42,124 bases of DNA from Desulfobacula sp. Its GTDB lineage: Bacteria; Desulfobacterota; Desulfobacteria; Desulfobacterales; Desulfobacteraceae. The position numbers and the translations under genes were made by a program. Each line of letters begins with the position of its first letter. Position 1 is the stretch's first letter. The stretch is from the NCBI RefSeq assembly GCF_014237455.1, contig NZ_JABZFL010000025.1, positions 1 to 42,124 on the forward strand, in the 5' to 3' direction. Shown here piece after piece: positions 1,255-18,004 of this stretch. Below the pieces are notes generated by a model that had not been told where the DNA came from, did not search any database, and saw only the letters and a program-made list of their open reading frames with translations.

Positions 1255-2055
1255 TTAGCTTTCAATGACCCCGGAACGAACCCCCTTAAGAAAGTTCATG
1301 CAGAAATCATCATGGGACAGGAGCATATCTGCGGTTCTGATGGTGGCCATGATTTTTTTGTCCAAGGGATCAATAATGGCGGAATCCATACCTGCATCCA
1401 TCATAAGGCTGACAAAGGTCCGGTTGATGATGTGGCGCTGGGGCAGGCCGTAGGAAATATTGGACAGGCCACCAGTGATGTGGACATCCGGGAATTCAGC
1501 TTTGATGGACCGGACTGCATCCAGAACCATGACGCCTTTGTTGGAGTCGGTGCTGATGGGCTGGACCAGGGGATCCACATAGATGGAGGCTGTGGGGATG
1601 CCGATCTTGTTGAGTTCTTCCACCAGGCCTCTGGCACGGCCCAGGATGTCATCGGAAGACGAAGGCATGCCGGCATCATCCATGCAAAGGGCAATGACCT
1701 TGCAGTCTTTTCCTTCAAGGAACGGCATCATAGCCTCAAACCGTTCTTTCTCCAGACTGATGGAGTTGATCATGGGGGTTTTCCCCACCATCTTAAACGC
1801 CATTTCCAGGACAGCTGGGTCCGGGCTGTCCAGAGTAAGGGGAACGGTGGCAATGGGCTGGATGGTGTCCAGAAGCCATTTCATATCTTCGGTTTCATGA
1901 CCGATGCGGGCTCCGGCATTGACATCAATATAGTTGGCGCCTGCTTCCTGCTGTTTTTTTATATCATCAATGATATAGTCAGCATCCCTTTCTGCCACGG
2001 CTGCCTGAACAAATTTTCTGGAGGTATTGATTCTTTCACCTATTACTTCAAACAT
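1255..2055 (-). CDS. Methyl-corrinoid:tetrahydrofolate methyltransferase (MtgA-like, pterin-binding)
   Basis: A 266-residue protein of the dihydropteroate synthase-like TIM-barrel family found in MetH pterin domains, AcsE and MtgA. Characteristic segments are the N-terminal V-I-G-E-R-I-N, the Y-I-D-V-N-A-G strand around residue 42, PLTLDSPDPAVLEMAF, N-S-I-S-L-E-K, and ITGGLSNISYGLP. In the family this enzyme takes the methyl group from a methylated corrinoid protein and gives it to tetrahydrofolate, feeding the Wood-Ljungdahl branch. It is the last gene of the operon, 29 bases after the corrinoid-protein gene, with a good AGGAG site before ATG 2055. Length fits the stand-alone MtgA form. The MtgA assignment depends on the neighbours; the fold assignment is firm. 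Confidence 0.85.
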   Translation of the reverse strand: MFEVIGERINTSRKFVQAAVAERDADYIIDDIKKQQEAGANYIDVNAGARIGHETEDMKWLLDTIQPIATVPLTLDSPDPAVLEMAFKMVGKTPMINSISLEKERFEAMMPFLEGKDCKVIALCMDDAGMPSSSDDILGRARGLVEELNKIGIPTASIYVDPLVQPISTDSNKGVMVLDAVRSIKAEFPDVHITGGLSNISYGLPQRHIINRTFVSLMMDAGMDSAIIDPLDKKIMATIRTADMLLSHDDFCMNFLKGVRSGVIES

Positions 2056-2084: not shown

Positions 2085-2717
2085 TTAGCTGACAAATGAT
2101 TTGGCAAGTTTTGAAGCAGAGCCTGCATCAGCTGCAAACCCGTCTGCCCCGATTTCATCGGCAAAGGTCTGGGTGACAGGTGCACCGCCCACAAGAATTT
2201 TGACCTGGTCCCGCAGGCCGCTTTCCACAATGGCATCCACAGTTTGTTTCATCATGGGCATGGTGGTGGTCAAAAGAGCTGACAGGCAGACAATCTGTGC
2301 ATTTTTTTCTTTGATCTGGGCCACAAAATTTTCAGGCGCAATATCCACCCCGATATTGTGAACTTCCATGCCGGCGCTTCCCATCATCATGGCCACGAGA
2401 TTTTTACCGATATCATGGAGGTCGCCTTTAACCGTTCCAATGATCACGCTGGCACTGGTGGCGGATTCATCTTCTCCCAACAGGGGCTTTAGGATGGTGA
2501 CGCAGTCTCCCATGGACTTGGCTGCCATGAGGACTTCGGGGATAAACATATCACCGCTTTCCATTTTTTCGCCCACAATGTCCATACCGGCAATCAGGCC
2601 TTTGTTGAGAATATCACCGGCCGGGGTATTCTGGGCCAGGGCGTCGTTTACAAGGTCTGTCAGTTTGGCGCCGTCACAGGAAACCAGGGCATCTGTCATT
2701 GCATTAAAATCAGTCAT
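2085..2717 (-). CDS. Methyltransferase corrinoid protein (MtbC1/MtgC-like)
   Basis: A 210-residue protein with the two-part layout of methyltransferase corrinoid proteins. Residues 1-85 form a helical cap containing a MESGDMFIPEVLMAAKSM segment, and residues 90-210 form the Rossmann-type B12 domain. The base-off cobalt-binding motif D-x-H-x-x-G is present as GDLHDIGKN, with His101 the expected lower axial ligand. Later S-x-L and GG motifs (LSALLTTTM and VGGAPV) also match B12 binding. It should carry the methyl group between the MttB-type enzyme and the pterin methyltransferase. It starts 11 bases after the MttB-family gene behind an AAAGGAG site, consistent with tight translation coupling and a shared complex. 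Confidence 0.92.
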   Translation of the reverse strand: MTDFNAMTDALVSCDGAKLTDLVNDALAQNTPAGDILNKGLIAGMDIVGEKMESGDMFIPEVLMAAKSMGDCVTILKPLLGEDESATSASVIIGTVKGDLHDIGKNLVAMMMGSAGMEVHNIGVDIAPENFVAQIKEKNAQIVCLSALLTTTMPMMKQTVDAIVESGLRDQVKILVGGAPVTQTFADEIGADGFAADAGSASKLAKSFVS

Positions 2718-2728
2718 TTTTCTCTCCT

Positions 2729-4150
2729 TTAAGGGTTTTTACGTTTTTCAACATATTGGGTTAATTGTTTTTCAATTTCCGGGTCAATGTCAGGTTTTTC
2801 ATAGGAAGCCAGCCGCTGTGCTACCTTGTCTTCTGCAATCTGGTTAATGTGTTTTTTTCCATCCTTTGCCCAGGCATCCGGGTTCTTGCGGCTCATAAGA
2901 GTGGGCATGAAAAATTCGGTCCGGCACAGTTTAAAGGTCTTGGGATGGGTCAGGTACTGGCCGCCGATGCCCACCTCCTTGATCACGTCAATATCAATTG
3001 AATCATCGGTGAGGGCAAGGGGTTTGAGCATGTTCAATATCATGCCGCAGGCTTCCTCGTCAACAAGGAATTTCTCAAAACTCATGGCAATATAGGAACC
3101 CAGAATACCGCAGGAATGGAGAATGAAATTGATCCCGCTCCTGGCTGCAGTGGAAAGGGCCAGGGCAGATTCCACACCGGCCTGGGCATCGGCACACAAG
3201 GCATCGGTCAGACCACCGCCGGACCTTGAGGGGAGATTGTAGAACCGTGCCATCTGAGCCACCAGGTGAATGTTTTTAGACAGCTCGGGTGCACCAATGG
3301 AGAGAGCGCCTGTTTTCATGTCCATGGCAGAAGAGGTGGATCCATAGATTACAGGGGCTCCCGGTCTGACCAGCTGGGCCAGGGTGATACCGGCCAGGAT
3401 TTCAGCATTCTGGAGGGCCAGTACTCCGTCCAGGGTCACGGGGCCGGAGCCGCCGGCCATGATAAGGGAGGCCACCACACAGGCCTGGTTGTGACGGGCA
3501 AGTTCAATGAGTGATCCAATCATTTCATCGGCAAACTGCAAAGGGGACAAAGAGTTGATCAGAGAGACAGATACGGTCTTGTCCATAATGTTTTTCTTGC
3601 CGCCCCAGAGGATACCGGCCATTTCAATTCCGTCCAGGGCGCCCTGTCGGGATACCGGGCTTCCCATAAAGGGTTTGTCGCACAAAAGCATATTGGACAG
3701 GTTCAGGTCCAGGTGGACCGTCTCATGGGGCATATCAGCCGGTTCCACCATCATCCAGCCGTTCATGTTGATGTACGGAGATGTCTGGATCAGTTTGCAA
3801 AAATTGTCATAATCTTCCATGGTGGCCTGGCGTTGATTGCCCTGGACGTCCATGACAAAGGGAGCGCCGTATCCGGGCAGGAAGACAAAATCATCTTCCC
3901 CGATTTCCACATTTTTTTCCGGGTTCCTGGCATGGACGGTGAAACGTCTGGGTGCGGTTTTCAAAGCCTTTTGAATGTCGGATTCTTCAAAAAATACTGT
4001 GGCACCTTTCACCCTGTGTCCGTTTGCCTTGAAAATTTTGAGCGCCTCTTCTTCATTAAAGGAAACACCGGTGTTTTTTAGAAGATCCATGGCGGCATCA
4101 TGGATTTTTTCCATGTTTTGGATACTCAGTTCCTGCATTCTATCATACAT
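2729..4150 (-). CDS. Trimethylamine methyltransferase family protein without pyrrolysine; probable glycine betaine:corrinoid methyltransferase
   Basis: A 473-residue protein of the MttB superfamily (COG5598). Family segments include E-x-x-x-K-I-H-D-A-A near the N-terminus, LPGYGAPFVMD, and NLSNMLLCDKPFMGSP. The frame runs through with no internal TAG codon, so it is the non-pyrrolysine branch, whose characterised members demethylate quaternary amines such as glycine betaine (MtgB), proline betaine or carnitine rather than trimethylamine. The companion corrinoid protein, pterin methyltransferase and an upstream BCCT carrier all fit quaternary-amine use. Glycine betaine is preferred here because choline-oxidation genes lie nearby, but another betaine cannot be excluded. 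ATG 4150 follows a good GGAG site. Confidence 0.85.
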   Translation of the reverse strand: MYDRMQELSIQNMEKIHDAAMDLLKNTGVSFNEEEALKIFKANGHRVKGATVFFEESDIQKALKTAPRRFTVHARNPEKNVEIGEDDFVFLPGYGAPFVMDVQGNQRQATMEDYDNFCKLIQTSPYINMNGWMMVEPADMPHETVHLDLNLSNMLLCDKPFMGSPVSRQGALDGIEMAGILWGGKKNIMDKTVSVSLINSLSPLQFADEMIGSLIELARHNQACVVASLIMAGGSGPVTLDGVLALQNAEILAGITLAQLVRPGAPVIYGSTSSAMDMKTGALSIGAPELSKNIHLVAQMARFYNLPSRSGGGLTDALCADAQAGVESALALSTAARSGINFILHSCGILGSYIAMSFEKFLVDEEACGMILNMLKPLALTDDSIDIDVIKEVGIGGQYLTHPKTFKLCRTEFFMPTLMSRKNPDAWAKDGKKHINQIAEDKVAQRLASYEKPDIDPEIEKQLTQYVEKRKNP

Positions 4151-4237: not shown

Positions 4238-5743
4238 TTATTTGTTGTTTTCTTTTTTATATTGGTTCAATCCCTTGAATGTGCCGTAAAGTACCAGCAG
4301 CAGCAGGAACATGAGGGGAAATGCCGTTGCAATGGAGGCGGTCTGGATGGCTTTGAGGCTGCCGCTTCCGGCCAGCACGGCTGCCACGGCACCCAGAGCA
4401 ATGCCCCAGAAGGCTCGCAGATTTCGTCCGGGATTTTCATGACCGGATACAAACATGGCAAGGGACAGGGCTGCGGAATTGGCAGAAGTCAAAAAGAAGG
4501 TGCCGATTAAAAAGATCAGGGCAACGGCCAGAAGCCCTGTCATTGGAAGGTTCTGGGCAATAGCGAATATAGCACTTTCCATTCCGTGTTCCTTCATGGT
4601 GGCACTGACGTCAAAATGAATTCCGGCCCCGCCTACGACTCCGTACCAGAGAAAATTCCCCAGAGTGGGGAGAATCAGGGTGGCGGCAACGGTTTCACGG
4701 ATAGTTCTTCCCTTGGAGATCCTGGCGATAAATACGGCCACAAAGGGCGCCCAGCTCATCCACCATGCCCAGTAGAACACGGTCCAGGAGCCGATCCAGT
4801 TACCTTCAAATCCCGGAGCGGTAAAAAGGCTCATGGGAATAAAATGCAGAAGATACTGGCCCATGGAATTTATGGTAAGGTTGATCAGGAAAATACTGGG
4901 GCCGAATATCAGGACAAAAAACCAGACTAGGACAAAGATCCACATGTTGATATCTCCGATGAGCTTTACCCCTTTTTGAAGTCCTGTGTAAACCGACAGG
5001 GTGAAAATGGCGGTGAGGATAGTGATGATGATATAAGTGCTGGAAGAGCCCAGCTGCATACCGTACTGGAATTTCAGTCCGGAAGAGAGCTGGAGGGCCA
5101 CAAAGCCCGTGGTGGTGGCAAGGCCGCCCAGGGTGGCAAACACGGCAAAGATGTCCAATATTTTTCCCCAGGTGCCGTGGATCTTGTCGCCGATAACATA
5201 GTAAAAAGCACTGGAAAATTTTAAAGGCAGGTTATGGGTAAAGCAGGCATGACCTATGGCAATGGTCAGCATGGCATAGATAGACCAGGCACTCAACCCC
5301 CAGTGGAAAAAGGAATAGGTCATGGCATTGGAACCTGCGGCCGGGGTGTTTGCCTCTCCGCCAAAATAGGGAGGTGGGCTCATATAATGGTAGGCCGGCT
5401 CGGCAGGGCCCCAGAATACAATGCCTGCGGCAATGGCAGAGCCAAAGAGCATGGCAAACCAGGAAAAATTGGAAAACTCGGGTTTGTCACTGGGAAGCCC
5501 CAGTTTCATGCTGCCGTATTTTTGTCCCATGAGAACAAAACAGCCAATGACCAGCATGAAGACAGTCAATAGATAGAGCCATGCCCATTTGGTGGTGGTC
5601 CAGCTGAAAACCGCATTGATGACCGCAGTCATATTTTCGGGAAAGAGAATGGACCAGAGGACAAAAAGGACGGTTACAGAGGCAGAAACCCAGAACACAA
5701 ATGGATCAAAAGGTTTTGTTGATGTTGTTGTTGTATTATTCAA
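4238..5743 (-). CDS. BCCT-family betaine/carnitine/choline transporter
   Basis: A 501-residue protein with about twelve membrane segments. The BCCT signature is very clear around residues 310-350: G-S-W-T-V-F-Y-W-A-W-W-M-S-W-A-P-F followed by F-I-A-R-I-S-K-G-R-T-I-R-E. The family imports quaternary ammonium compounds using sodium or proton gradients. Placed first in the operon, it should import the methyltransferase substrate, probably glycine betaine, possibly choline. The start is a TTG (5743) behind AGGAG at seven bases, so the annotated start is non-ATG but well supported. The cytoplasmic tails are short, so an osmosensory role is less likely than catabolic uptake. Confidence 0.92.
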   Translation of the reverse strand: MNNTTTTSTKPFDPFVFWVSASVTVLFVLWSILFPENMTAVINAVFSWTTTKWAWLYLLTVFMLVIGCFVLMGQKYGSMKLGLPSDKPEFSNFSWFAMLFGSAIAAGIVFWGPAEPAYHYMSPPPYFGGEANTPAAGSNAMTYSFFHWGLSAWSIYAMLTIAIGHACFTHNLPLKFSSAFYYVIGDKIHGTWGKILDIFAVFATLGGLATTTGFVALQLSSGLKFQYGMQLGSSSTYIIITILTAIFTLSVYTGLQKGVKLIGDINMWIFVLVWFFVLIFGPSIFLINLTINSMGQYLLHFIPMSLFTAPGFEGNWIGSWTVFYWAWWMSWAPFVAVFIARISKGRTIRETVAATLILPTLGNFLWYGVVGGAGIHFDVSATMKEHGMESAIFAIAQNLPMTGLLAVALIFLIGTFFLTSANSAALSLAMFVSGHENPGRNLRAFWGIALGAVAAVLAGSGSLKAIQTASIATAFPLMFLLLLVLYGTFKGLNQYKKENNK

Positions 5744-7535: not shown

Positions 7536-7706
7536 ATATCATTGTTAAAACACCCTGTTTTCGATTTGTGATCTATACCATATCCGGAATGGAATATCAA
7601 AGCGCCTGGTTTTTTTTAAAGGGGATACAGCCATATTGTTTTTAAGTAATTTATGATAGGTTAATATTTTTTGGACTGTTTTAATAAATGATAATTAGAG
7701 GTGATT

Positions 7707-8498
7707 ATGACTGCACCTGTTACATCCGGTGACTTAAGAGAATTGATTGAAAAATATGTAGCAGATTATCCAAAGGCCGCAGGTGGAAAGAATTTCTGGC
7801 GGACACCCCTTGCAGTCACAGCAAAGGCGGACGAACGCTTTGATATTTTGCCCAAAATTGCAGCAGATGACCATATTCTTCCAAAAGATCTTCTGGCCAC
7901 GGGTAAGTCTGTGATCGTTTTTTTTATTCCTTTTATCAAAGACCTGGCCAGGGAAAATCATAAAGGGGATATCCCCTGCCGGAACTGGGGACTGGCATAT
8001 GAATCCACCAATACATTGATTAACAAACTGTGTGAGCAGATCAAGCTTTTCCTTGAAGATGCCGGATACCATTCTGCCCTGGTCCCGGCAACGCATAATT
8101 TTGATCATAAGAAATTGATGGCCCGCTGGTCCCATAAACATCTGGGATATGTAGCAGGCCTGGGCCGCTTTGGTGTTAATGCTCAGTTCATCACGCCATC
8201 AGGCTGTACCGGTCGTTTGGGCAGCCTGGTCACCCAGGCTGATCTCGGTGACAGCCCTCTGGTGATTGAAAAAGAGCTTTGCCTTCATAAAAATGGTCAT
8301 AAATGTTTGGTCTGTGTCAAACGCTGTCCTGTAGGAGCCGTATCTGCCGAGACAGGAATAGACCGGAAAAAATGCTGGGCCAGACTCAACTCCAATCTTC
8401 ATGATACAGAAGAAATGGCAGGCCTGGAGAAAACCACCCATGTTTGCGGGAAGTGCCAGGTTATCGTTCCCTGCAGTTTTAAAATTCCAAAAGCATAA
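7707..8498 (+). CDS. QueG-like Fe-S protein with two [4Fe-4S] sites; possible corrinoid-activating reductase
   Basis: A 263-residue soluble protein resembling epoxyqueuosine reductase (QueG), itself a relative of cobalamin-dependent reductive dehalogenases. The segment KHLGYVAGLGRFGVNAQF matches the cofactor-domain region of that family. Two cluster sites follow: C-x-x-C-x-x-x-C-P around KCLVCVKRCP with a further Cys after GIDRKK, and CGKC...PC near the end. It is shorter than true QueG, lacks the HEAT-like tail, and no queuosine genes are nearby. Between corrinoid methyltransferase and choline-oxidation genes, a role in reducing inactivated Co(II) corrinoid is attractive but unproven. ATG 7707 has AGAGG five bases upstream; the in-frame GTG at 7701 overlaps that site and is less likely. 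Confidence 0.75.
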   Translation: MTAPVTSGDLRELIEKYVADYPKAAGGKNFWRTPLAVTAKADERFDILPKIAADDHILPKDLLATGKSVIVFFIPFIKDLARENHKGDIPCRNWGLAYESTNTLINKLCEQIKLFLEDAGYHSALVPATHNFDHKKLMARWSHKHLGYVAGLGRFGVNAQFITPSGCTGRLGSLVTQADLGDSPLVIEKELCLHKNGHKCLVCVKRCPVGAVSAETGIDRKKCWARLNSNLHDTEEMAGLEKTTHVCGKCQVIVPCSFKIPKA

Positions 8499-8519: not shown

Positions 8520-10172
8520 TCAGGCGTTGTGCCGATAAAATCCTGCCGTTGAAGGTGGCTCCAAAGTATTGCCCAGTATGAGGTCACAGGCTTTTTCCGC
8601 CACCATCATGACCGGAGCATAGATATTTCCGTTGGTCACATAGGGCATGACCGAGGCATCCACCACACGCAGGTTTTCCACGCCGTGAACCTTCATGGTA
8701 TCCGGGTCCACCACAGCCATATCATCTTTTCCCATTTTGCAGGTGCAGGAAGGGTGAAGCGCAGTTTCTGCGTCCTTTGCCACCCAGTCCAGAATATCAT
8801 TGTCTGTCTGAATATGGTTGCCCGGAGAGGTTTCCCCATCGTTAAATTCGTTAAAGGCCGGCTGGTTCATGATCTTTCTGGCACACCTTATGGCTTCTAC
8901 CCATTCTTTGCGGTCCTGGTTCGTGGATAAATAGTTGAAGTGCAGGGCCGGGTGGTGCCGGGGGTCCGTAGATTTGATTTTAACCGATCCCTTGGAATTG
9001 GAATACATGGGGCCCACATGGACCTGATAGCCGTGGTCATGGCTGGGCTGGCTGCCGTCGTAACGAATGGCCAGGGGCAGGAAATGGAATTGGATATTCG
9101 GATATTCTACATCATTATTGCTTCTGATAAATCCACCTGCCTCAAAATGGTTGGTGGCGGCTGCACCAGATCTGTGGAAGAGCCATTGGTAGCCGATAAA
9201 GGGTTTTTTCCACCACTTGAGGGACGGGTTCAAGGATATAGGTTTTTTGCATTTATACTGGACATAGACTTCCAGGTGGTCCTGCATGTTTTCTCCCACT
9301 CCGGGAAGATCATGGACTGGCTTGATGCCGAGTTTTTCAAGCTGTCCGGCATTTCCAATGCCTGATAACTGGAGGATTTGTGGGGAGTTTATAGCGCCGC
9401 CACAGCAGATGACTTCTCCTGAATGGACGGTTTTTGGGCTGCCTTTCCTGCCTTTGATAAATTCCACACCAATGGCTTTTTTGTTGTCAAACAGGATTCG
9501 GGTGGTAAGAGCCCGGCAGATTACATCCAGATTGGGCCGTTTTTTCAGGACGGGGTGAAGATAAGCCCTTGCCGCAGAAAGACGGCGGCCCCGGCTGATA
9601 TTTCGGTCAAAGGCGCCAAATCCTTCCTGCTGGTATCCATTGACATCTCTGGTCAGGGGGTAACCCGCCTGTTTGGTCGAATCGAGAAATGCCTGGAATA
9701 GCGGGTTCTTACAGGGTCCTGTTTCAAGTATGAGGGGACCGTCCGTGCCATGGTAGTCATCTCTTCCTTTAAGACGATTTTCAGCTCTTTTAAAATAGGG
9801 CAGGTTATGAGCATAATCCCAGCTTTCCATACCTGCATCTCTGGCCCATTTTTCATAATCCATGGCATTGCCCCTAATGTAGATCATGCCATTGATACTG
9901 GAGGAACCACCAAGGACCTTGCCCCGGCCATGGGAAACTTTTCGGTTGTGCATATGGGGTTCAGGTTCGGATTCGTAACACCAGTCATAATATTTATTAC
10001 CCAAAGGATAGGTCAGGCCAGCCGGCATGTGAATGAAAATATCCCAGATATAATCCGGCCTGCCAGCCTCTATAACCAATACTTTATTAGCCGGGTCCTG
10101 ACTGAGTCTGTTGGCCAGAACACAACCGGCAGAGCCGCCGCCTATAATGAGATAATCATATTTTTCTTTCAT
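8520..10172 (-). CDS. betA: Choline dehydrogenase-like GMC oxidoreductase (BetA type)
   Basis: A 550-residue flavoprotein of the glucose-methanol-choline family. It has the N-terminal FAD motif GGGSAGC, GMC signature 1 ([20 protein letters not shown]), signature 2 around [16 protein letters not shown], and the BetA-like HPSCTCKMG with the expected catalytic His473. [17 protein letters not shown] and the closing PPSTAGFY are especially BetA-like. BetA oxidises choline to betaine aldehyde and passes electrons to the respiratory chain rather than oxygen, which suits an anaerobe. It is the last gene of the ferredoxin-AOR-tetR-betA operon, 21 bases after tetR, with AAAGGAG before the ATG. Another alcohol substrate is possible, but the surrounding quaternary-amine genes favour choline. 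Confidence 0.85.
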
Positions 10173-10193
10173 TATTTTAACTCCTTTTCAGTA

Positions 10194-10784
10194 TTACCGG
10201 TTTTCAGACACCAGGCTGATAAATCCAGCCACCAGGTCATCAATATCCATTTCATCGTCCCTGACAAGGGCCTGGAGTGCAACGCCCTGTAGGCCTGAAA
10301 TAAAACAGACTGCCGCAGCCCGGTTGGTTTTATTTTGGGAAACCCGGTTCAGGGCATCTTCAAAGGCATCCACAAATTTATCATAGGCAGCCTGGATTTT
10401 TATAATTACAGGCCCCCTGATACCGCTGAATTCAGCTGCCAGGGAAGCCAAGGCAATGATTGTGTCAGGATGGTCTTGAAACCGGCCCATAAAAATATCC
10501 ATCATGCCGCTGACCATTTTTTTATAATCTGTATGGTCTTGGCTCAGATACTCAATATATTGGTCAAAGCTATGGTCAAGCTCTTCCACCACTTCTTTAA
10601 GGATATCAGGTTTTGAATTGTAGTGGTGAAACACAGCTCCCGTGGTCATGCCAATGTGATAGGCGATATCTTGAATCGTGGTTTTATGGTACCCCAGCCG
10701 GGCAAATAAATGGGTTGCGGTTTCAAGAATCAGCCTTTTTGTGGCAATCCGTTTGGCTTCTTTTTTATTGATGGGGACCGACAT
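10194..10784 (-). CDS. TetR-family regulator (BetI-like position)
   Basis: A 196-residue protein with a TetR-type helix-turn-helix over about residues 15-62: ILETATHLFARLGYHKTT, then DIAYHIGMTTGAVFHHY and the usual N-x-K-x-D-I-L-x-E-V. The C-terminal ligand domain is not specific enough to name an effector. Its start overlaps the end of the oxidoreductase gene by 20 bases, so it is translated with that operon and probably autoregulates it. In classic bet operons a TetR repressor, BetI, responds to choline; this gene has the same context. A TetR-style palindrome (13158-13176) lies upstream of the operon. Confidence 0.88.
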   Translation of the reverse strand: MSVPINKKEAKRIATKRLILETATHLFARLGYHKTTIQDIAYHIGMTTGAVFHHYNSKPDILKEVVEELDHSFDQYIEYLSQDHTDYKKMVSGMMDIFMGRFQDHPDTIIALASLAAEFSGIRGPVIIKIQAAYDKFVDAFEDALNRVSQNKTNRAAAVCFISGLQGVALQALVRDDEMDIDDLVAGFISLVSENR

Positions 10785-12609
10785 ACTTTATTCCCAAACG
10801 GTTCAGGGTTTTATCAAGGGGGACGCCTTTTTTGTTCCATCCCCGCAATTGATAATATTCCTGCCGCATATAGTCCATATCATCCCTTGAAATCCTGTGG
10901 CCCTTTGAAGGACCGTCGGGAAGAGGTTCCTCTACAAACCTGCGGGGAAGGATATCTTTTTGGGCAGTAAGACCCTGGGCCAGGTTAAAATACCTGACAA
11001 GGTTCCAGATCCGCTCACCTGTTTCCATGAGGGTATTGGTATCTGCTTTTTGTCCCGTTGCCGCACTGAGAAGTTCGGCATAGGTGTCGGCAGGTATGCC
11101 GTAACTGCCAAAGTCACAATTCACCAGGGTGTCACGACCAGCGGAATAATTCTGCAGCGCTACCACCATTTGCGCTTTGTCCTCGGGCGAGAGCGGATCA
11201 AGGGGGTGTCCTTCCCATTCTCCTGACAATTCATAGGACACGGGAAATCCCCTCTGGTGACATCCGCCCCGGTCCGTTGTCATATATGCCAGGCCCATGC
11301 CCGAGACCCCTCTGGGACCCCATGCAGGAGCTTCAAGTCCTTTGGTGTGTACGGCCAGTTCCTCTGCCGTTCCCGCGATTTTTTGGGCAGCCTTCTGTAC
11401 GCCCTGGGACAAAAGTTTTCCCAATTCACCTTTTTTGTTTGCAATGGCATGGATCAGGTGTTCAGCTGCCGCCACGTTACCGAATTTTAGATCAATACCT
11501 TTGGGAGAAGGGATCAAGCCTTTTTCACAGGCCTCCATGGCAAAACCGATAATATTGCCCGTGGACATTGAATCCATTCCGTAAAGGTCACAGAGCTTGA
11601 CCAGGTGGGCCACAGCCCTGATATCGGAAATGTCCAGGTTGGCCCCCATGAGGGCGACAGATTCATACTCTATAATATCTGTAATAATACCTTTATATTT
11701 TCCGGTCCGGACCGCTCCGATTTTGGAACATCTGATGGGGCACCCCATACAGGCAGAGCTGCCCAGCCACAAATGTTTAGACTGGCCCTTATCCCCCAGA
11801 TCAGATGCCTTTGAAAAGGTTCCATTTTGATAATTTTTATGGGGCAAAAGACCGGTCTCATTGGCAAATTCAACGGAAGCGGCTGTGCCGGCCTGACGGA
11901 AGGATTCTACGTCCGGACTTTCTTCAAGTTCTTTGAAAGCCCTGGCACAGGCTGTTATAAATCGCTGCGGGTCATGAACTAGGACCGGTTTGGTACCCTT
12001 TATGGCAATGGCCTTAAGATTTTTGGAGCCCATGACGGCACCGGCGCCGCCCCTACCTGCCTGGCGGTTGTACTCACCGCAAATCAGAGCGAAAGGAATC
12101 CGGGCCTCACCTGCCTGGCCGATAGTGGCAATTTTGATAGTTTTATCCTTGAGTTCGGTTTTGATCAGCCTATTGGCTTCCAGAGTATTGGTTCCCCATA
12201 AGTGCCGGGCATCCCGGATTTCCACATGATCATCATTAATCCATATAAAGACCGGCTTTTTGGCCTGGCCTTTGATGATGATGCCGTCATATCCGGCATA
12301 TTTGATTTCAGGAGAGAAACTGCCGCCAAAATAGGAATCCAGGAAAATACCGGTCAGAGGAGATTTGGTGACCACACACCCCCGCATGGCTGGGGCCATG
12401 GTACCAGTTAAGGGCCCTGTCATAAATATGAGCGGATTATCTTTGCTCAAAGGATCAGTACCCGGGGAAACCATGTCACAGAGAAGTTTTGCTCCAAATC
12501 CTTTTCCGCCGATAAAGTTTGTCTTAAGGGCATCAGGGACCGGGAGAATTTCAAAAGACGCATGGGACAAATCAATCATCATCAGTTTGTTTGTGTAGGC
12601 AGAACTCAT
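10765..12609 (-). CDS. Tungsten-type aldehyde:ferredoxin oxidoreductase
   Basis: A 614-residue member of the AOR family, the normal length. The N-terminal pterin-binding part has G-G-K-G-F-G-A-K-L-L and AGRGGAGAVMGSKNLKAIAI. The [4Fe-4S] ligands are Cys287, Cys290 and Cys294 in CMGCPIRC, with Cys498 (NCDFG) as the fourth. The family oxidises aldehydes to carboxylic acids, reducing ferredoxin, with a bis-pterin tungsten centre. It starts inside the stop codon of the polyferredoxin gene (ATGA overlap), so the two are coupled and form the usual AOR-ferredoxin pair. With betA downstream, betaine aldehyde is the likely substrate, making glycine betaine for the methyltransferase. This would replace the NAD-dependent BetB; it is an inference. 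Confidence 0.9.
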   Translation of the reverse strand: MSSAYTNKLMMIDLSHASFEILPVPDALKTNFIGGKGFGAKLLCDMVSPGTDPLSKDNPLIFMTGPLTGTMAPAMRGCVVTKSPLTGIFLDSYFGGSFSPEIKYAGYDGIIIKGQAKKPVFIWINDDHVEIRDARHLWGTNTLEANRLIKTELKDKTIKIATIGQAGEARIPFALICGEYNRQAGRGGAGAVMGSKNLKAIAIKGTKPVLVHDPQRFITACARAFKELEESPDVESFRQAGTAASVEFANETGLLPHKNYQNGTFSKASDLGDKGQSKHLWLGSSACMGCPIRCSKIGAVRTGKYKGIITDIIEYESVALMGANLDISDIRAVAHLVKLCDLYGMDSMSTGNIIGFAMEACEKGLIPSPKGIDLKFGNVAAAEHLIHAIANKKGELGKLLSQGVQKAAQKIAGTAEELAVHTKGLEAPAWGPRGVSGMGLAYMTTDRGGCHQRGFPVSYELSGEWEGHPLDPLSPEDKAQMVVALQNYSAGRDTLVNCDFGSYGIPADTYAELLSAATGQKADTNTLMETGERIWNLVRYFNLAQGLTAQKDILPRRFVEEPLPDGPSKGHRISRDDMDYMRQEYYQLRGWNKKGVPLDKTLNRLGIKYVGPHQ

Positions 12610-13025
12610 TGATCTTTCCTTAGTTGAACCAGTTCAAGGGCTCCAGTGGGGCAGGCTTCAACACACAGAGGCTTCCCCTGGCACAATTCGCATTTAACCG
12701 CTTTTTTTGTATCAGGATCCAATGATACCATTCCCATGGGGCAGTATTGGGCACATAAACCGCAGTTGATACATTTATCCGGATCAATACAGACAATGCC
12801 GTCATCATTTCGATGGATGGCTTTAACAGGACAGGCAGTCATGCAATAGGCATTTCCGCACTGACTGCAGACCACAGGCATATGATATAGGTTTTCATTT
12901 TTGTTTTGAATTAAAAGACGGGCCCGTCTCGGGTTATAGCCCCCTATCAGGTCCATGCTGCATGCCAGCTGACAGATACAGCATCCCGTGCATCTGTCAA
13001 AATGTGTGTGGATAAAGGCTTTGAT
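12606..13025 (-). CDS. AOR-associated polyferredoxin with four [4Fe-4S] sites; apparent AUC start
   Basis: Read from 13025 this is a 139-residue ferredoxin with four cysteine groups: CTGCCICQLAC (Cys12, 15, 18, 22), CSQCGNAYCMTACP, CINCGLCAQYCP and CELCQGKPLCVEACP. It is the electron partner usually encoded next to AOR. The first ATG in frame is at 12956 and would remove the whole first cluster. Upstream the frame stays open to a TAG with no ATG, GTG or TTG, but the codon ATC at 13025 stands six bases after AGGAG and would give (M)KAFIHTHFDRC, close to the usual M-K-A start of the family. It may be a rare AUC start or a mutated or misread ATG. The ferredoxin identity is firm; the start is inferred. 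Confidence 0.8.
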   Translation of the reverse strand: MKAFIHTHFDRCTGCCICQLACSMDLIGGYNPRRARLLIQNKNENLYHMPVVCSQCGNAYCMTACPVKAIHRNDDGIVCIDPDKCINCGLCAQYCPMGMVSLDPDTKKAVKCELCQGKPLCVEACPTGALELVQLRKDQ

Positions 13026-13067: not shown

Positions 13068-13083
13068 TATCACGTATTATGTA
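13068..13083. promoter_or_regulatory. Operator-like site, proximal copy
   Basis: TATCACGTATTATGTA matches the distal palindrome at 13158-13173 in 14 of 16 positions. It lies about 45 bases upstream of the polyferredoxin start, where a repressor would block the operon promoter. Confidence 0.45.
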
Positions 13084-13137
13084 CTATGTAAATAAGTTTC
13101 ATTATTGTTTTTAAAAAAAATATATGGTATGCCTTGG

Positions 13138-13165
13138 ATCACATATCACATATCACATATCACAT
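13138..13165. repeat. Four tandem heptads ATCACAT
   Basis: Four perfect copies of the 7-base unit run head to tail (13138, 13145, 13152, 13159). The last copy forms the left arm of the palindrome that follows, so the array looks like multiplied operator half-sites, possibly produced by slippage. Confidence 0.85.
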
Positions 13166-13176
13166 ATTATGTGATA
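13158..13176. promoter_or_regulatory. TetR-like palindromic operator
   Basis: TATCACATA and TATGTGATA form a perfect 9-bp inverted repeat around a single T. Size and symmetry suit a TetR dimer; the TetR encoded in the leftward operon is the obvious candidate, and the site also lies 90 bases before the liv promoter. Confidence 0.55.
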
Positions 13177-13360: not shown

Positions 13361-14074
13361 ATGCTCAAGGCGACCCATATTACCAAAAAGTTTGGAGCGT
13401 TGGCAGCTGTCGATGACCTAAGTTTTGAGGTGAAAGAAGGGCAGGTATTTGGAATAGCCGGTCCAAACGGTGCGGGTAAATCCACTTTATACAACCTCAT
13501 CACGGGATTTTACAAATATGAAGGCAAAATAGAGTTTGACGGTAAGAATATAACCGGATTTCCCACGCACAAAATTGCTCGTCTTGGGATTTCAAGAACG
13601 TTTCAAATTCCTCAAATTTTTGAAAGCCTGACAGTGGAAGAAAGCGTGAATTTGGGCTGCCGTTTCGGCAACCCCGGCAAATACCACCCCGGCTATTCCG
13701 ATGAGATGATCTCTTTTACCAGTCTTAAAGAAGAGCGCAGCAATAAAACTGATCTTCTAAACTTGTTGGGCAAAAAAAGATTGATGATAGCGGCTGCTCT
13801 GGCAACAAAGCCAAAAATATTGATGGTTGATGAGCCCATGGCAGGGCTTAACGCTTTGGAGATTAAGCAAATGACAAATCTCATACAAAAAATCAATCAA
13901 GATCTTAAAATCACCGTCATCATTATTGAACATTTTATGAAGGTTTTAACAGAGCTTGCCAATCCTATCTTAGTTATAGAAAACGGGAGCGAGATCTGTA
14001 CCGGGACGCCTGAAGAAATAACCTCAAATCCCGAAGTTATTGCCTGCTACCTGGGAGATACACATGATGCTTAG
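13361..14074 (+). CDS. livG: LivG-type ABC transporter ATPase with degenerate signature loop
   Basis: A 237-residue ATPase of the hydrophobic/branched-chain amino acid (HAAT) uptake family. Walker A is GPNGAGKST (34-42), the LivG-type IARLGISRTFQIPQIFESLTVEE segment follows, and Walker B is ILMVDEPMAGLN. The ABC signature, normally LSYGQ or similar, reads LNLLG (133-137), and the stretch before it is shorter than usual; the whole protein is some 15-20 residues short. The flanks (KKRLMIAAALATKPK) are normal. Either the loop has diverged or a pair of compensating frameshifts lies here. It is first in a five-gene operon and overlaps livF. The family is certain; full ATPase competence is not. Confidence 0.85.
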   Translation: MLKATHITKKFGALAAVDDLSFEVKEGQVFGIAGPNGAGKSTLYNLITGFYKYEGKIEFDGKNITGFPTHKIARLGISRTFQIPQIFESLTVEESVNLGCRFGNPGKYHPGYSDEMISFTSLKEERSNKTDLLNLLGKKRLMIAAALATKPKILMVDEPMAGLNALEIKQMTNLIQKINQDLKITVIIIEHFMKVLTELANPILVIENGSEICTGTPEEITSNPEVIACYLGDTHDA

Positions 14075-14771
14075 TATTGAAAACCTGAACGCGTATTACG
14101 GACAAGCCCACGTACTCAAAGATGTGTCTATTAATGTTAACAAAGGAGAAGTAGTGGTGATGCTGGGACCTAATGGTCACGGCAAAAGCACTTTGTTAAA
14201 AAGCCTTTGCGGCATGGTGGATTATAGGCGGGGCAAAATAGTTTATAAAGATCAGGATATTATTAAATTCTCATCTGAGAAGATCGTCAACCTGGGAATT
14301 ACATATATTGCTGAAAATCGGGAACTGTTTCCCTATATGTCAGTCATGGAAAATCTTAAATTAGGGGCGTATTCAAGAAATGCCCGCAAATATGAAAAAC
14401 AAAATCTGGAAAAAGTTTTTTCACTGTTTCCTCGCTTGGCCGAAAGAAAGAAACAATATGCTAGCACCATGAGCGGTGGCGAAGCCAAAATGTTGGCTAT
14501 TGCCCGTGGATTGATGTCAAATGCTGATTTTCTGGCCATTGACGAACCAGCTTTGGGGTTACAGCCAAATTTAAGGGTGGAGGTGACCAAGATTATTAAG
14601 GAGATTAACAAGCAGGGTAAAACAATTCTGGTGGTCGAACAGAACATCCCCCAGATAACCGATCTGGCTGACAAGCTATATGTTTTGGAAGAAGGGCGCA
14701 TAACGTTTTCGGGGAGTAAAGACGATGCCTTAAGTAACGAGGATCTAAAGGAAATTTTTTTGGGGATGTGA
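14064..14771 (+). CDS. livF: LivF-type ABC transporter ATPase
   Basis: An ATPase of about 235 residues starting MMLSIENLNAYYGQ. Walker A is GPNGHGKST, the signature is intact as M-S-G-G-E within STMSGGEAKMLAIARGL, and Walker B is FLAIDEP followed by LGLQPN, all typical of LivF. It pairs with LivG on the cytoplasmic face of the LivHM permease. ATG 14064 overlaps the livG stop and has GGGAG six bases upstream; ATG 14067 is equally in frame. A longer frame from 14040 exists but lies inside livG and adds atypical residues, so it is not used. The intact motif here contrasts with livG, so one active site of the pair is clearly complete. Confidence 0.92.
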   Translation: MMLSIENLNAYYGQAHVLKDVSINVNKGEVVVMLGPNGHGKSTLLKSLCGMVDYRRGKIVYKDQDIIKFSSEKIVNLGITYIAENRELFPYMSVMENLKLGAYSRNARKYEKQNLEKVFSLFPRLAERKKQYASTMSGGEAKMLAIARGLMSNADFLAIDEPALGLQPNLRVEVTKIIKEINKQGKTILVVEQNIPQITDLADKLYVLEEGRITFSGSKDDALSNEDLKEIFLGM

Positions 14772-14843: not shown

Positions 14844-15716
14844 ATGTTTATAGAGATTCTTGACGTTATTATCAGCGGTTTATTGAATGGGTCAGTTTAT
14901 GCCCTTATGGCTATTGGCCTCGCACTTGTCTACGGTGTAACAAAAGCCTTTAATTTTGCATATGGATCTTTTTATACTATGGGCGGTTATTTTGCCTGGG
15001 TGCTTCTGGTCTCTCTGGGAATAAAAGGCGGATACTATACGGTTTTTCTTGCAGCTATCCCCTTTCTCTTTGTTGTGGGGTTCTTCCTGGAGAAAGCCTT
15101 GATATCTCCCTTACGAAAACGGTCTGACTGGCAGATGAAAGCCATGATGTTAACCCTGGGGTTGTCACTCTTTCTGGATATCGGATATATCTCCGTGTTT
15201 GGTCCGCGGCTCAAATCATTACCCGATATCGTGGAAGGTACCCTTACCATTGGCCCGTTTGTATTTATGAACCAGGATATGGTTATCTTCATATTATCCA
15301 TCACAGGCTTACTTTGCTTTGCCTGGCTATTAAACAATACCCGTGTGGGAATGGCGGTACAGGCCGTTGCCCAAAACCCGGTGGGTGCTCAGATTGTCGG
15401 CATTCCCAAGGACCGTGTTTTTGCCGCCACCTTTGCCATCTCAACCATCATGGTGGGGATTGGCGGGATTTTACTGAGCCAGAAAAATTTTGTTAATCCA
15501 CAGGCCAGCACAGGCATTATGATCAAGGCCTGGGTTATTACCGCTTTTGGCGGTATGGGGTCTATCAAGGGCAGTCTTTATGCCGCGCTTATTATCGGAA
15601 TGCTGGAGGCGTTTGTTGGTTATTATCTGGGAATGATACACATTGAGATCGCTGTTTTAACATTACTTTTAATCACCCTGGCATTTCGTCCCCAGGGTCT
15701 GATGGGAAGAGAATAA
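14844..15716 (+). CDS. livH: LivH-type ABC transporter permease
   Basis: A 290-residue integral membrane protein with about eight hydrophobic segments. LivH landmarks are the N-terminal GLLNGSVYALMAIGLALVYG, FNFAYGSFYTMGGY, and the cytoplasmic loop with QNPVGAQIVGIPKDRV that contacts the ATPase. It ends with TLAFRPQGLMGRE, the standard C-terminus. It forms the channel with LivM. A 72-base gap separates it from livF, ending in a GGGGGAG ribosome site before the ATG. Confidence 0.93.
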   Translation: MFIEILDVIISGLLNGSVYALMAIGLALVYGVTKAFNFAYGSFYTMGGYFAWVLLVSLGIKGGYYTVFLAAIPFLFVVGFFLEKALISPLRKRSDWQMKAMMLTLGLSLFLDIGYISVFGPRLKSLPDIVEGTLTIGPFVFMNQDMVIFILSITGLLCFAWLLNNTRVGMAVQAVAQNPVGAQIVGIPKDRVFAATFAISTIMVGIGGILLSQKNFVNPQASTGIMIKAWVITAFGGMGSIKGSLYAALIIGMLEAFVGYYLGMIHIEIAVLTLLLITLAFRPQGLMGRE

Positions 15717-15720
15717 GATT

Positions 15721-16722
15721 ATGAATACTAAAAGTATGGTCACAATTCTTGCGGTTACATATGGTTTTCTTGGCATCCTGCCTTTGTTCCTGGGCGGCAG
15801 CTCAATTTATATGAGGATACTGACCATGATTTTGATATGGTCTGTTGTGGCCTCATGCTGGGATCTTATCATGGGGTATGCCGGTATATTTTCTTTTGGG
15901 CAGGTGGCGTTTTATGTCATCGGCGCCTATTCATCTGCCATATTTTCAGTATCCTTAAACGTGACGCCTATTGTATCCATATTCATGGCCGGAACGATTA
16001 CCGCAATTATTGGTGTCATTATAGGGTTACCCTGTCTTAAACTCGCAGGACCCTACATTGCTCTGGTTACATTTGCATTTCAACTGGCTCTGGAGCCTTT
16101 CCTTAAAGGTCCCCTTGGCAAAGCCATTGGTTCAGGAGGATCACGGGGCATTATCAGTGTTCCCCCGATTCATCTTTTTGGCATGGATTTTTCTTCCTCC
16201 GAGCTGGTGCCGTACTTCTATCTTACGCTTGTTCTGACCCTTATTTGCAGTGCTGTCATTGTGGTGATCTTAAAATCACACTGGGGCACGGCTTTTCTGG
16301 CGTTAAAGGATTCTGAAGATTTTGCAGCGAGTCTGGGTGTCAGTGCCTTCAAATACAAACTTCTGGTGTTTGCCATTACCTCTTTTATAACCGGTTTGTT
16401 TGGCGCCCTTTATGTCCACTATGTCGGTATTTTGTCGACGCGGATGCTGAGTATGGAAGTATTTACCGTTTTGCTGATCATGATTGTAGTGGGGGGTATC
16501 GGCCAATATCCGGGTGTTGTCCTGGGCGCGGTGGTCACGGTCACCATGAACGAGCTTCTTAGACCCATGGGTATTTACCGCCTCCTGATCATGGGCGGAA
16601 TGGTGGTTGTCATCGTATTACTGCTTCCGGATGGTGTTACCGGTTTGATTCGGAAGTTTTCTTTTTCCAGGTGGACAAACAAAGAGAGCAGGTCCATTGA
16701 AACACATGAATCAAATCTTTAA
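15721..16722 (+). CDS. livM: LivM-type ABC transporter permease
   Basis: A 333-residue membrane protein with about nine to ten hydrophobic segments. Typical LivM features are WDLIMGYAGIFSFGQVAFYVIGAY near residue 45-65, the ATPase-contact loop LKDSEDFAASLGVSAFKYKL, and VVGGIGQYPGVVLGAVV. It starts four bases after livH, indicating coupled translation. The short charged tail after the last helix is unremarkable. Together with LivH it should import an amino acid or related zwitterion; the substrate is set by the binding protein. Confidence 0.92.
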   Translation: MNTKSMVTILAVTYGFLGILPLFLGGSSIYMRILTMILIWSVVASCWDLIMGYAGIFSFGQVAFYVIGAYSSAIFSVSLNVTPIVSIFMAGTITAIIGVIIGLPCLKLAGPYIALVTFAFQLALEPFLKGPLGKAIGSGGSRGIISVPPIHLFGMDFSSSELVPYFYLTLVLTLICSAVIVVILKSHWGTAFLALKDSEDFAASLGVSAFKYKLLVFAITSFITGLFGALYVHYVGILSTRMLSMEVFTVLLIMIVVGGIGQYPGVVLGAVVTVTMNELLRPMGIYRLLIMGGMVVVIVLLLPDGVTGLIRKFSFSRWTNKESRSIETHESNL

Positions 16723-16783: not shown

Positions 16784-18004
16784 ATGAAAAAAATCGGTTT
16801 GATGTCGTTGGTTGTTGCAACCTTTATGGTACTGGGATCATGGGCTTTTGCAGCCGATACCATTAAGGTGGGTTGTGCGTTTTCTTTGACCGGAGATTAT
16901 GCCGGTTCCGGAGATAACTATTTTAAAGGTGTTGAGATGGCCGTGGAAGAGCTCAATGCAGCAGGTGGTCTGTCAGGCAGACAGCTTGAGATTGTTATGT
17001 TTGATAATCAGGACTTTGCACCTGAAGTGGTTATGCAAGGTGCCGATTATCTGTGTGCCCAAAAAAAGGTTGCAGTTGTGGTTGCAGGCTGGGCAGGTGC
17101 TGGAGCGGATGTCAGGGCTTATGGGAAATATGATGCCCCCTTTTTCATTGATGATGGTTCCCAGGCCTCGGTTGATGTGTACAAGGAAGACCCGAAAAAA
17201 TATTATAATGCTTACTTTATGACCGATGTCGCAGCGGATCAGGGGGGCAGTGTGTTTAAAGCATTGCAAAAATTGCCCTATGATTATCCCAACAAAAAAG
17301 TCGTGCTCATCAATACGGATGATGCCTGGGGTGGGGAAATTGGGGCAGTTATGTCAAAAAGATTTAAAGAAATCGGCTGGGATATAGCGCTGCATGAAGT
17401 TGTTCCCTATGGTACCAATGAGTGGGGTCCGATTTTAACCAAAATAAGAAGGATCAAACCAGCAGTTATTCATTTTGAAATAGCAGCATCACAGGAACCC
17501 ATCACTTTTGTTCGACAATTTCTTAAAAAACCGACCAATACAATTATCAGTCTGGGCTGGAGTATTACTCCTCTTGAGGTAGTAGGTACCCTGGGTAAAA
17601 AAGCTGATGGTGTTCTGGGTCAGATGCCTGCGGGTGTGCCGACACCTGCAGCACCCACTGCCGAAGCACAGGCATGGTTGGACAAGTACGAAAAACGGTA
17701 CAAACATAGTCTTGGGGTAGGCTCCTTTATCACCTATACGAGCTTTATGGCCTGGGCTGAGGCTGCTAAAGTTGCAGGCGATCCCTATGATTTCAAGGCA
17801 GTAAATAAGCATCTCAAAGAAGTCCCTTATAAGGGATTAATGGGGGGCATAAGCTGGGGTGAAAATAATACCCTGCATGCACAACCAGGCGCTCCCATAG
17901 TTCACTACCAGGTACAAGACGGTGAACTGGTAACCCTGTTTGCCGATCCACCGCTAACACCTTACAAGGATAGTAAGTTCATTAAACCGCAGTGGATTAA
18001 GTAG
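16784..18004 (+). CDS. Periplasmic binding protein of the HAAT transporter (LivK-like)
   Basis: A 406-residue exported protein. A cleavable signal peptide (MKKIGLMSLVVATFMVLG, cleavage likely after SWAFA) is followed by a type I periplasmic-binding fold beginning TIKVGCAFSLTGDYAGSGDN and containing KGVEMAVEELNAAGGLSGR. It captures the substrate for LivHMGF. The family binds branched-chain amino acids, amides, urea, aromatic acids and other small ligands, so leucine uptake should not be assumed; closeness to the choline/betaine cluster leaves open a related ligand. It lies last in the operon behind a strong GGAGGG site and before a terminator, which suits the higher expression usual for binding proteins. 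Confidence 0.9.
   Translation: MKKIGLMSLVVATFMVLGSWAFAADTIKVGCAFSLTGDYAGSGDNYFKGVEMAVEELNAAGGLSGRQLEIVMFDNQDFAPEVVMQGADYLCAQKKVAVVVAGWAGAGADVRAYGKYDAPFFIDDGSQASVDVYKEDPKKYYNAYFMTDVAADQGGSVFKALQKLPYDYPNKKVVLINTDDAWGGEIGAVMSKRFKEIGWDIALHEVVPYGTNEWGPILTKIRRIKPAVIHFEIAASQEPITFVRQFLKKPTNTIISLGWSITPLEVVGTLGKKADGVLGQMPAGVPTPAAPTAEAQAWLDKYEKRYKHSLGVGSFITYTSFMAWAEAAKVAGDPYDFKAVNKHLKEVPYKGLMGGISWGENNTLHAQPGAPIVHYQVQDGELVTLFADPPLTPYKDSKFIKPQWIK

Follow-up and report, generated by a model that had tools for sequence, protein, structure and literature searches.

How is betaine aldehyde oxidised in a strict anaerobe that carries a gene for choline dehydrogenase and none for the usual aldehyde enzyme? In classic bacteria this step is performed by BetB with NAD. 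The question is raised by a stretch of 42,124 nucleotides from Desulfobacula sp. (NZ_JABZFL010000025.1; the whole stretch is called the window here), which is contig 108 in a genome of 3.48 Mb that is 97.8% complete. In the window, genes for a polyferredoxin, an aldehyde:ferredoxin oxidoreductase (AOR), a TetR-type regulator and BetA follow one another on the minus strand:

12606-13025, minus strand: polyferredoxin subunit of 139 residues with 18 cysteines (ATC start, AGGAG upstream)
10765-12609, minus strand: aldehyde:ferredoxin oxidoreductase of the AOR clade, putative betaine aldehyde:ferredoxin oxidoreductase (AOR domains and fold)
10194-10784, minus strand: TetR-family regulator, not BetI (profile matches)
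8520-10172, minus strand: BetA, FAD choline dehydrogenase (TIGR01810 and PDB comparison)

These four genes very probably constitute a choline oxidation module of strict anaerobes, in which the AOR acts as a betaine aldehyde:ferredoxin oxidoreductase and replaces BetB. The step from betaine aldehyde to glycine betaine, second in the oxidation of choline, appears in many bacteria that avoid oxygen to be carried out by a ferredoxin-linked enzyme of the tungsten type rather than by an NAD enzyme, which would give a known enzyme family a new role at the aldehyde step of choline oxidation. The enzymatic activity itself is predicted here from sequence comparison.

The order and shared direction of the four genes, the 4- and 20-base overlaps and the 21-base gap had been given in an initial annotation made from the letters of the window, and re-reading of the open reading frames returned the same arrangement. 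The AOR contains both domains of its family (AFOR_N, 252 bits; AFOR_C, 419 bits), and its AlphaFold model, with a predicted local distance difference test (pLDDT) value of 93, finds its closest PDB match in 1aor, with a template modelling (TM) score of 0.94. The product of the ferredoxin gene matches 4Fe-4S families in a profile scan. The dehydrogenase, described initially as strongly BetA-like, exceeds the curated cut-off for choline dehydrogenase (TIGR01810, 861 bits versus 732), and its closest PDB chain is the choline dehydrogenase 9lq0 (666 bits). By contrast, the TetR-type protein reaches 29 bits on the BetI model (TIGR03384), where 201 are needed, and its identification as BetI was rejected. 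The earlier description of a bet-like operon thus holds for BetA and for the presence of a TetR-type gene, but the regulator is not BetI, and the commonest additional neighbour of the unit is a LIV-type transporter and no classic bet gene. The classic operon of Pantoea soli (L194) consists of a choline transporter, betI, betB and betA. It resembles the window in its BetA (55.1% identical), in a TetR-type regulator and in a nearby transporter, whereas the window has a polyferredoxin and an AOR for BetB, a regulator other than BetI and a LIV-type ABC transporter, and its electrons would be passed to ferredoxin instead of NAD.

Does this AOR represent a lineage of its own? A search of 97 genomes separated orthologues with 54-89% identity, found in 23 genomes including that of the window (three of them partial, in G006, G020 and G036), from paralogues with 45% or less. 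When named genomes were scanned with the clade alignment, the best 80 of 134 relatives comprised 49 loci at 53-89% identity and 31 at 42% or less. Among the named members of the clade are Desulfospira joergensenii, Desulfamplus magnetovallimortis, Desulfocicer vacuolatum, Desulfatibacillum alkenivorans, Desulfosarcina alkanivorans and three metagenome-assembled genomes of Bacillota. In a quick tree of 50 clade and 38 other rows, the clade makes up one side of a branch with a support of 100 in the Shimodaira-Hasegawa-like approximate likelihood ratio test, with several long branches among the 38 non-clade rows. The AOR of the four-gene unit is one of 12 in the window genome, if two pieces on contig 97 are counted as a single gene, and seven of the other 11 were checked: they fall outside the clade and have no choline gene within about 1.5 kb. 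The gene in two pieces (G000:C97:11942-12949) displays an in-frame TAG; dual genetic code expansion has been reported for marine Deltaproteobacteria (PMC8318568).

Choline genes recur around the AORs of this clade. Stretches of DNA (23) were fetched around the orthologues from 22 genomes other than that of the window, and BetA occurs with the ferredoxin and/or the AOR in 19 of them; L051, L061 and L062 stop at or near the AOR, and L060 continues for 3 kb more, with BetA on another contig. The initial annotation had proposed looking for the ferredoxin-AOR-tetR-betA order in other genomes, and the association of the genes exceeds chance, because BetA accompanies the ferredoxin or the AOR in 19 of these 23 stretches and because further families, as well as Bacillota, possess the unit too. 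At the 49 clade loci, the ferredoxin gene lies directly upstream of the AOR gene in 46, while BetA is present in 40 (downstream in 35, upstream in 4, divergent in 1), GbsB in 2, a binding protein of the ChoX/OpuAC type in 9 and BetB in none. Genes for a LIV transporter, the commonest further neighbour, are found at 25 loci and never together with ChoX/OpuAC, and TetR was detected in 22, some loci being cut by contig ends. At equal thresholds, 44 of the 49 clade loci contain some choline gene versus 0 of 38 non-clade AOR loci. These controls comprise 31 loci of the named-genome scan, with at most 10 kb of flank, and the seven paralogues of the window genome (flanks of about 1.5 kb), with a median length of 12.7 kb over all 38, and are weaker for the seven short-flanked paralogues; control locus L138 has an aldehyde dehydrogenase (ALDH) that is 31% identical to BetB and under the threshold.

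The clade is also found with choline genes unrelated to BetA. In Bacillus, GbsB converts choline into betaine aldehyde and GbsA completes the pathway to glycine betaine. In two Clostridiales loci (L100 and L111), GbsB comes next after the ferredoxin and the AOR (601 and 626 bits; cut-off, 550), so that the intermediates would be those of the Bacillus pathway, but a ferredoxin-AOR pair is present and no BetB-type match is seen; the window, for its part, uses BetA. In L108, a ChoXWV-type permease (TIGR03416, 424 bits; cut-off, 363) and an ATPase (TIGR03415, 513 bits; cut-off, 484) are encoded just upstream of the ferredoxin-AOR pair, and the gene order in L107, L109, L116 and L118 is BetA-OpuAC-ferredoxin-AOR. 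The AOR thus seems to take the place of BetB, since its clade pairs with an unrelated dehydrogenase and with choline ABC transporter genes as well. As a separate observation, L111:4817-9406 also carries genes for molybdopterin synthesis (a radical SAM protein with a Mob_synth_C domain, MoaC, MOSC, MobB and ThiF proteins) upstream of the choline-type binding protein, the ferredoxin, the AOR and GbsB.

These neighbourhoods bear on an alternative in which some other alcohol, imported by the LIV-type transporter, is turned into an acid by the BetA homologue and the AOR, the choline label being an artefact of assignment at the family level. We know of no LIV-type binding protein for choline, and the occurrence of LIV genes and of no known choline transporter at 25 of the 49 clade loci, together with a TetR that is not BetI, would fit such a pathway. 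This alternative is nevertheless unlikely, as BetA lies above the cut-off for choline dehydrogenase and closest to the solved 9lq0, the same AOR clade stands in other taxa beside GbsB and ChoXWV-type genes where LIV is absent, and AOR and BetB partners are intermixed in the tree of BetA described below.

If the AOR of the module replaces BetB, is BetB really missing? The window contains no match to BetB, as had been stated at the outset, and the model has no match in the rest of the window genome at E 1e-60. The only match to PF00171 in that genome is ProA (511 bits; cut-off, 289), and a BetB hidden elsewhere in the genome was rejected on these two results. That no candidate BetB was found in the window genome is a further reason to regard the AOR as its replacement. 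It could be argued that the AOR is instead a general aldehyde scavenger that detoxifies leaked betaine aldehyde while the main flux passes through another aldehyde enzyme: AORs often have a broad substrate range according to a review (PMC12096430), the window genome has 11 other AOR genes and most relatives that bear the unit have other ALDHs. Since ProA is the sole member of the ALDH superfamily matched in the window genome, the clade is distinct (23 specific conserved positions) and tied to choline genes, and the seven checked paralogues fall outside it and have no choline gene within about 1.5 kb, this explanation is very unlikely.

The relation of the AOR to BetB was surveyed in 389 genomes of the order, with cut-offs of E 1e-150 for BetA, 1e-220 for the AOR clade and 1e-170 for BetB, and with linkage defined as a distance within 6 kb. 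BetA was found in 64 genomes, the AOR clade in 45 and BetB in 19; the AOR co-occurs with BetA in 43 genomes and lacks it in 2, BetB co-occurs with BetA in 17, and the AOR and BetB meet in 1. Five genomes have BetA and neither partner, one of which (G651) holds a piece of a clade AOR in locus L177. At the level of genes, an AOR of the clade lies within 6 kb of 41 of the 66 betA and BetB within 6 kb of 16; no betA is near both, and 9 are near neither. Fisher tests, in which kinship is ignored, return 1e-38 for the association of the AOR with BetA and 6e-10 for the mutual exclusion of the AOR and BetB among BetA genomes. A quick tree of BetA with 69 rows (45 with AOR, 17 with BetB, 7 with neither) requires five changes of partner between AOR and BetB, and well-supported branches alone force 4 or 5, with the 'neither' rows counted as outsiders. 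The partner even differs within one genus code (G503 versus G519; G607 versus G648). A phylum-wide search for BetA was too sparse for use (3 of 297 genomes). As BetA is found beside the AOR or beside BetB, never beside both, and the two have been exchanged repeatedly, the AOR most probably stands in for BetB, as the initial annotation had suggested and as the GbsB and choline ABC pairings and the lack of a genomic BetB also indicate.

Several observations argue in the opposite direction. Only 5 of the 23 clade-AOR genomes (G000, G006, G025, G057 and G081) are free of matches to the BetB model at 1e-60, and the other 18 have lower-scoring ALDHs; the statement that BetB is absent from other genomes rests on the stricter cut of 1e-170, because ALDHs that match at 1e-60 are common. 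The 389 genomes were drawn evenly from a larger group, with 3-4 candidates scored per genome, and the counts take no account of relatedness. One genome (G034) also holds BetB at E 1e-170, unlinked and on another contig, and two of the 45 AOR genomes (G417 and G587) have no BetA match at E 1e-150. At five of the 49 clade loci no choline gene is seen: L084 and L099 reach the end of their contigs, L113 and L115 probably come from genomes whose BetA is on another contig, and L101 retains 2.1 kb past the AOR with no BetA match there. Seven OpuAC proteins were scanned, taken from loci of both the AOR and the BetB type, and their scores of 278-356 stay under the cut-off of the model for choline binding proteins (379), and BCCT and MttB genes neighbour the unit in few genomes. 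Finally, the second-shell residue Tyr427 of the Pyrococcus furiosus AOR corresponds to Trp430 in the window AOR (among 50 clade rows, 47 have Trp and 3 have Phe), and a review connects the replacement of Tyr by Trp with the inactive WOR4 (PMC12096430).

The remainder of the active site, compared with the P. furiosus AOR in 50 clade rows and 31 non-clade controls, is largely conserved. Every one of the 50 clade rows retains Thr243, Glu311, Glu313 and His448 of P. furiosus, and 49 retain Tyr312, the second-shell Thr243/Glu313/His448 being Thr242/Glu316/His451 in the window AOR; the site of Tyr452 is occupied by Phe in 48 rows and Leu in 2. At the Tyr427 site, the 31 non-clade controls mostly carry Tyr (20) or Gln (8), with a single case each of His, Trp and Cys. 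In 25 rows, C287, C290, C294, C498, Thr242, Glu314, Glu316 and His451 are invariant, the four cysteines being the ligands of the 4Fe-4S cluster. By alignment with Tyr427, Trp430 is probably a pocket residue, and it is proposed that the aromatic residue at this site contacts the trimethylammonium group. A further alternative is that the AOR has lost aldehyde oxidation, as proposed for WOR4 (PMC12096430), and serves the choline locus in some other redox function; the changes of Tyr427 to Trp and of Tyr452 to Phe would agree with a lost activity, but the invariance of the residues just listed and the want of another obvious enzyme for the aldehyde step in the window genome leave it hardly any probability.

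Among characterised enzymes, the window AOR shares the fold and all catalytic residues bar one with AorABC of Aromatoleum aromaticum (8c0z) and with the P. furiosus AOR (1aor), from which it differs by Trp in place of the second-shell Tyr. The polyferredoxin recalls the small subunit AorA of A. aromaticum; unlike in AorABC, the operon of the window has no gene for an FAD/NAD subunit, its other genes being those for TetR and BetA. WOR5/ASOR of P. furiosus likewise combines a member of the AOR family with a polyferredoxin subunit. A WOR5-type AOR was rejected for the window, as the clade keeps the Thr that WOR5, of another subfamily, has lost and has Trp where WOR5 has His, and the model matches WOR5 less closely (TM score of 0.85) than 1aor (0.94). 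According to a review, taurine is turned by WOR5 into betaine aldehyde and glycine betaine, a wording that looks chemically odd (PMC12096430).

What would such a module accomplish? Choline would be imported by the LIV-type or a BCCT transporter, the former probably taking choline or a precursor of it. BetA would then convert choline into betaine aldehyde, its electrons going to FAD and presumably on to the quinone pool, and the AOR with its polyferredoxin would oxidise betaine aldehyde to glycine betaine and release electrons at ferredoxin potential. The product could be demethylated or retained as an osmolyte, and in the window genome and a few relatives it could enter a nearby MtgB-type corrinoid demethylation. 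Sediments are rich in choline, and discussions of what becomes of it without oxygen usually centre on CutC, which cleaves it to trimethylamine; if the module works as proposed, oxidation to glycine betaine through the AOR leaves all methyl groups on a single molecule and can feed demethylation. Aldehyde/acid couples have a low potential, which would be conserved as reduced ferredoxin and not as NADH, so that more energy would be saved from a very common nutrient. One clade of AORs would also gain a physiological substrate, and genomes judged to be without a complete choline-to-betaine pathway for lack of BetB could have one. Pairs of an alcohol dehydrogenase and an AOR are known for ethanol in Desulfovibrio (PMC6491731) and for methanol in D. 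kuznetsovii (PMC11505543), and they likewise lead from alcohol to aldehyde to acid with the AOR second, although dehydrogenases and substrates differ; in both papers, the choline pathway is annotated with an ordinary choline dehydrogenase and betaine-aldehyde dehydrogenase. Among the matches listed for open-licence PMC literature, covering titles and the beginnings of abstracts, none describes an AOR that acts on betaine aldehyde in choline oxidation, the statement on WOR5 in PMC12096430 coming nearest; the initial annotation likewise knew of no such pathway.

The transporter that adjoins the unit in the window is encoded on the opposite strand, and two operator-like sites lie in the divergent region:

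13068-13091, minus strand: palindromic operator-like site, 1 mismatch to TTACATAGTACATAATATGTGATA, upstream of the ferredoxin gene
13153-13176, plus strand: second operator-like site, 4 mismatches to TTACATAGTACATAATATGTGATA, on the LIV side of the divergent region
13361-14074, plus strand: LIV-type ABC ATPase, conserved neighbour of the unit, which we take to be LivG from gene order and homology
14040-14771, plus strand: LIV-type ABC ATPase, conserved neighbour, taken in the same way to be LivF
14844-15716, plus strand: LIV-type permease, conserved neighbour, presumably LivH
15721-16722, plus strand: LIV-type permease, conserved neighbour, presumably LivM
16784-18004, plus strand: LIV-type substrate-binding protein (Peripla_BP_6), co-conserved, putative binder of choline or a choline precursor

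Transporter genes and unit are divergent at 15 of the 25 LIV-bearing loci and co-directional at the remaining 10. In the window, the LIV operon would share the palindromic candidate operator with the choline unit. The TTACATAGTACATAATATGTGATA site occurs with at most 5 mismatches in 12 of 36 loci scanned (window included), all of the window's family, and at the same limit is absent from 8 Markov-resampled windows; it is also absent from the eight BetB loci scanned (L063-L067, L159, L165 and L170). The site is assigned to neither TetR nor GntR because its presence tracks neither across loci: L045 and L052 have the site and GntR with no TetR match in the stretch, and L103, L105, L120, L121 and L132 hold GntR without TetR and lack the site. 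Related GntR regulators occur in choline loci of both types, those of the BetB loci L064-L067 clustering at 40% identity or more with those near LivG in the AOR loci L044 (4868-5629), L045 (3014-3775) and L052 (405-1166).

Beyond BetA, the window encodes candidate genes for import and for later use of glycine betaine:

1255-2055, minus strand: methyltetrahydrofolate:corrinoid methyltransferase-type protein (NF005719, 328 bits versus 259)
2085-2717, minus strand: cognate corrinoid protein, MtbC/MtgC-like (under curated cut-offs)
2729-4150, minus strand: MttB-superfamily methyltransferase, most MtgB-like, with no in-frame stop; putative downstream step (PDB comparison)
4238-5743, minus strand: BCCT-family transporter (family profile)

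The MttB-superfamily protein comes closest to the glycine betaine methyltransferase MtgB, reaching 468 bits with both 9yce and 2qne versus 173 with the trimethylamine methyltransferase 7xcl. The BCCT protein is below both model cut-offs (349 versus 695 for BetT; 508 versus 650 for the betaine model). Similar methyltransferase, corrinoid and BCCT genes adjoin the unit in L042/L075, and in L059 with no BCCT match; a BCCT protein at 38% is found near L058/L098, and the BetB locus L065 has corrinoid and methyltransferase genes nearby too. Conversion of glycine betaine into dimethylglycine has been reported for Desulfobacterium strains (PMC6716910). The CutC choline lyase route was rejected for the window genome, whose sole glycyl radical match to the model is HypD.

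The ferredoxin gene raises a question of its own, namely where its translation starts. The full open reading frame (12606-13025) requires an ATC start at 13023-13025, the start given by the open reading frame finder being 12956, and there is no ATG, GTG or TTG from the in-frame stop to the first cysteine cluster. Conserved non-AUG starts are rare, infC being an example. If the window is counted, 45 of the 50 clade loci contain the ferredoxin motif, and at a fixed position 8 codons before it ATC is found in 17 (window included), ATT in 4, ATA in 1, GTC in 1 and ATG in 4, the last at the matching position in the sister loci L092, L093, L095 and L099; in clade loci outside this group, the ferredoxin starts elsewhere. 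All 17 ATC rows, which come from Desulfobacula, Desulfotignum, Desulfospira and kin (17 of 45 rows), have a Shine-Dalgarno-like sequence upstream. In 14 of them, no ATG, GTG or TTG occurs from the in-frame stop to the motif, and L080, L090 and L094 have a GTG farther upstream.

The most complete version of the proposal would combine a subfamily of ferredoxin oxidoreductases in Desulfobacterota and Bacillota that is dedicated to betaine aldehyde, several exchanges with BetB, two unrelated choline dehydrogenases, a cation-pi hold of Trp430 on the trimethylammonium group, an unrecognised LIV-type choline importer in one family, low-potential ferredoxin for energy conservation and a conserved AUC start of the ferredoxin; that all of these hold jointly has roughly even chances.

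Two further neighbours of the unit deserve mention. At 7701-8498 of the window, an iron-sulphur protein with weak likeness to QueG and reductive dehalogenases adjoins BetA, and it is kept near the unit in a few relatives. An alkaline phosphatase (PF00245) adjoins the unit in 6 of the 49 clade loci (L077, L079, L080, L083, L084 and L105), where it might free choline from phosphocholine.

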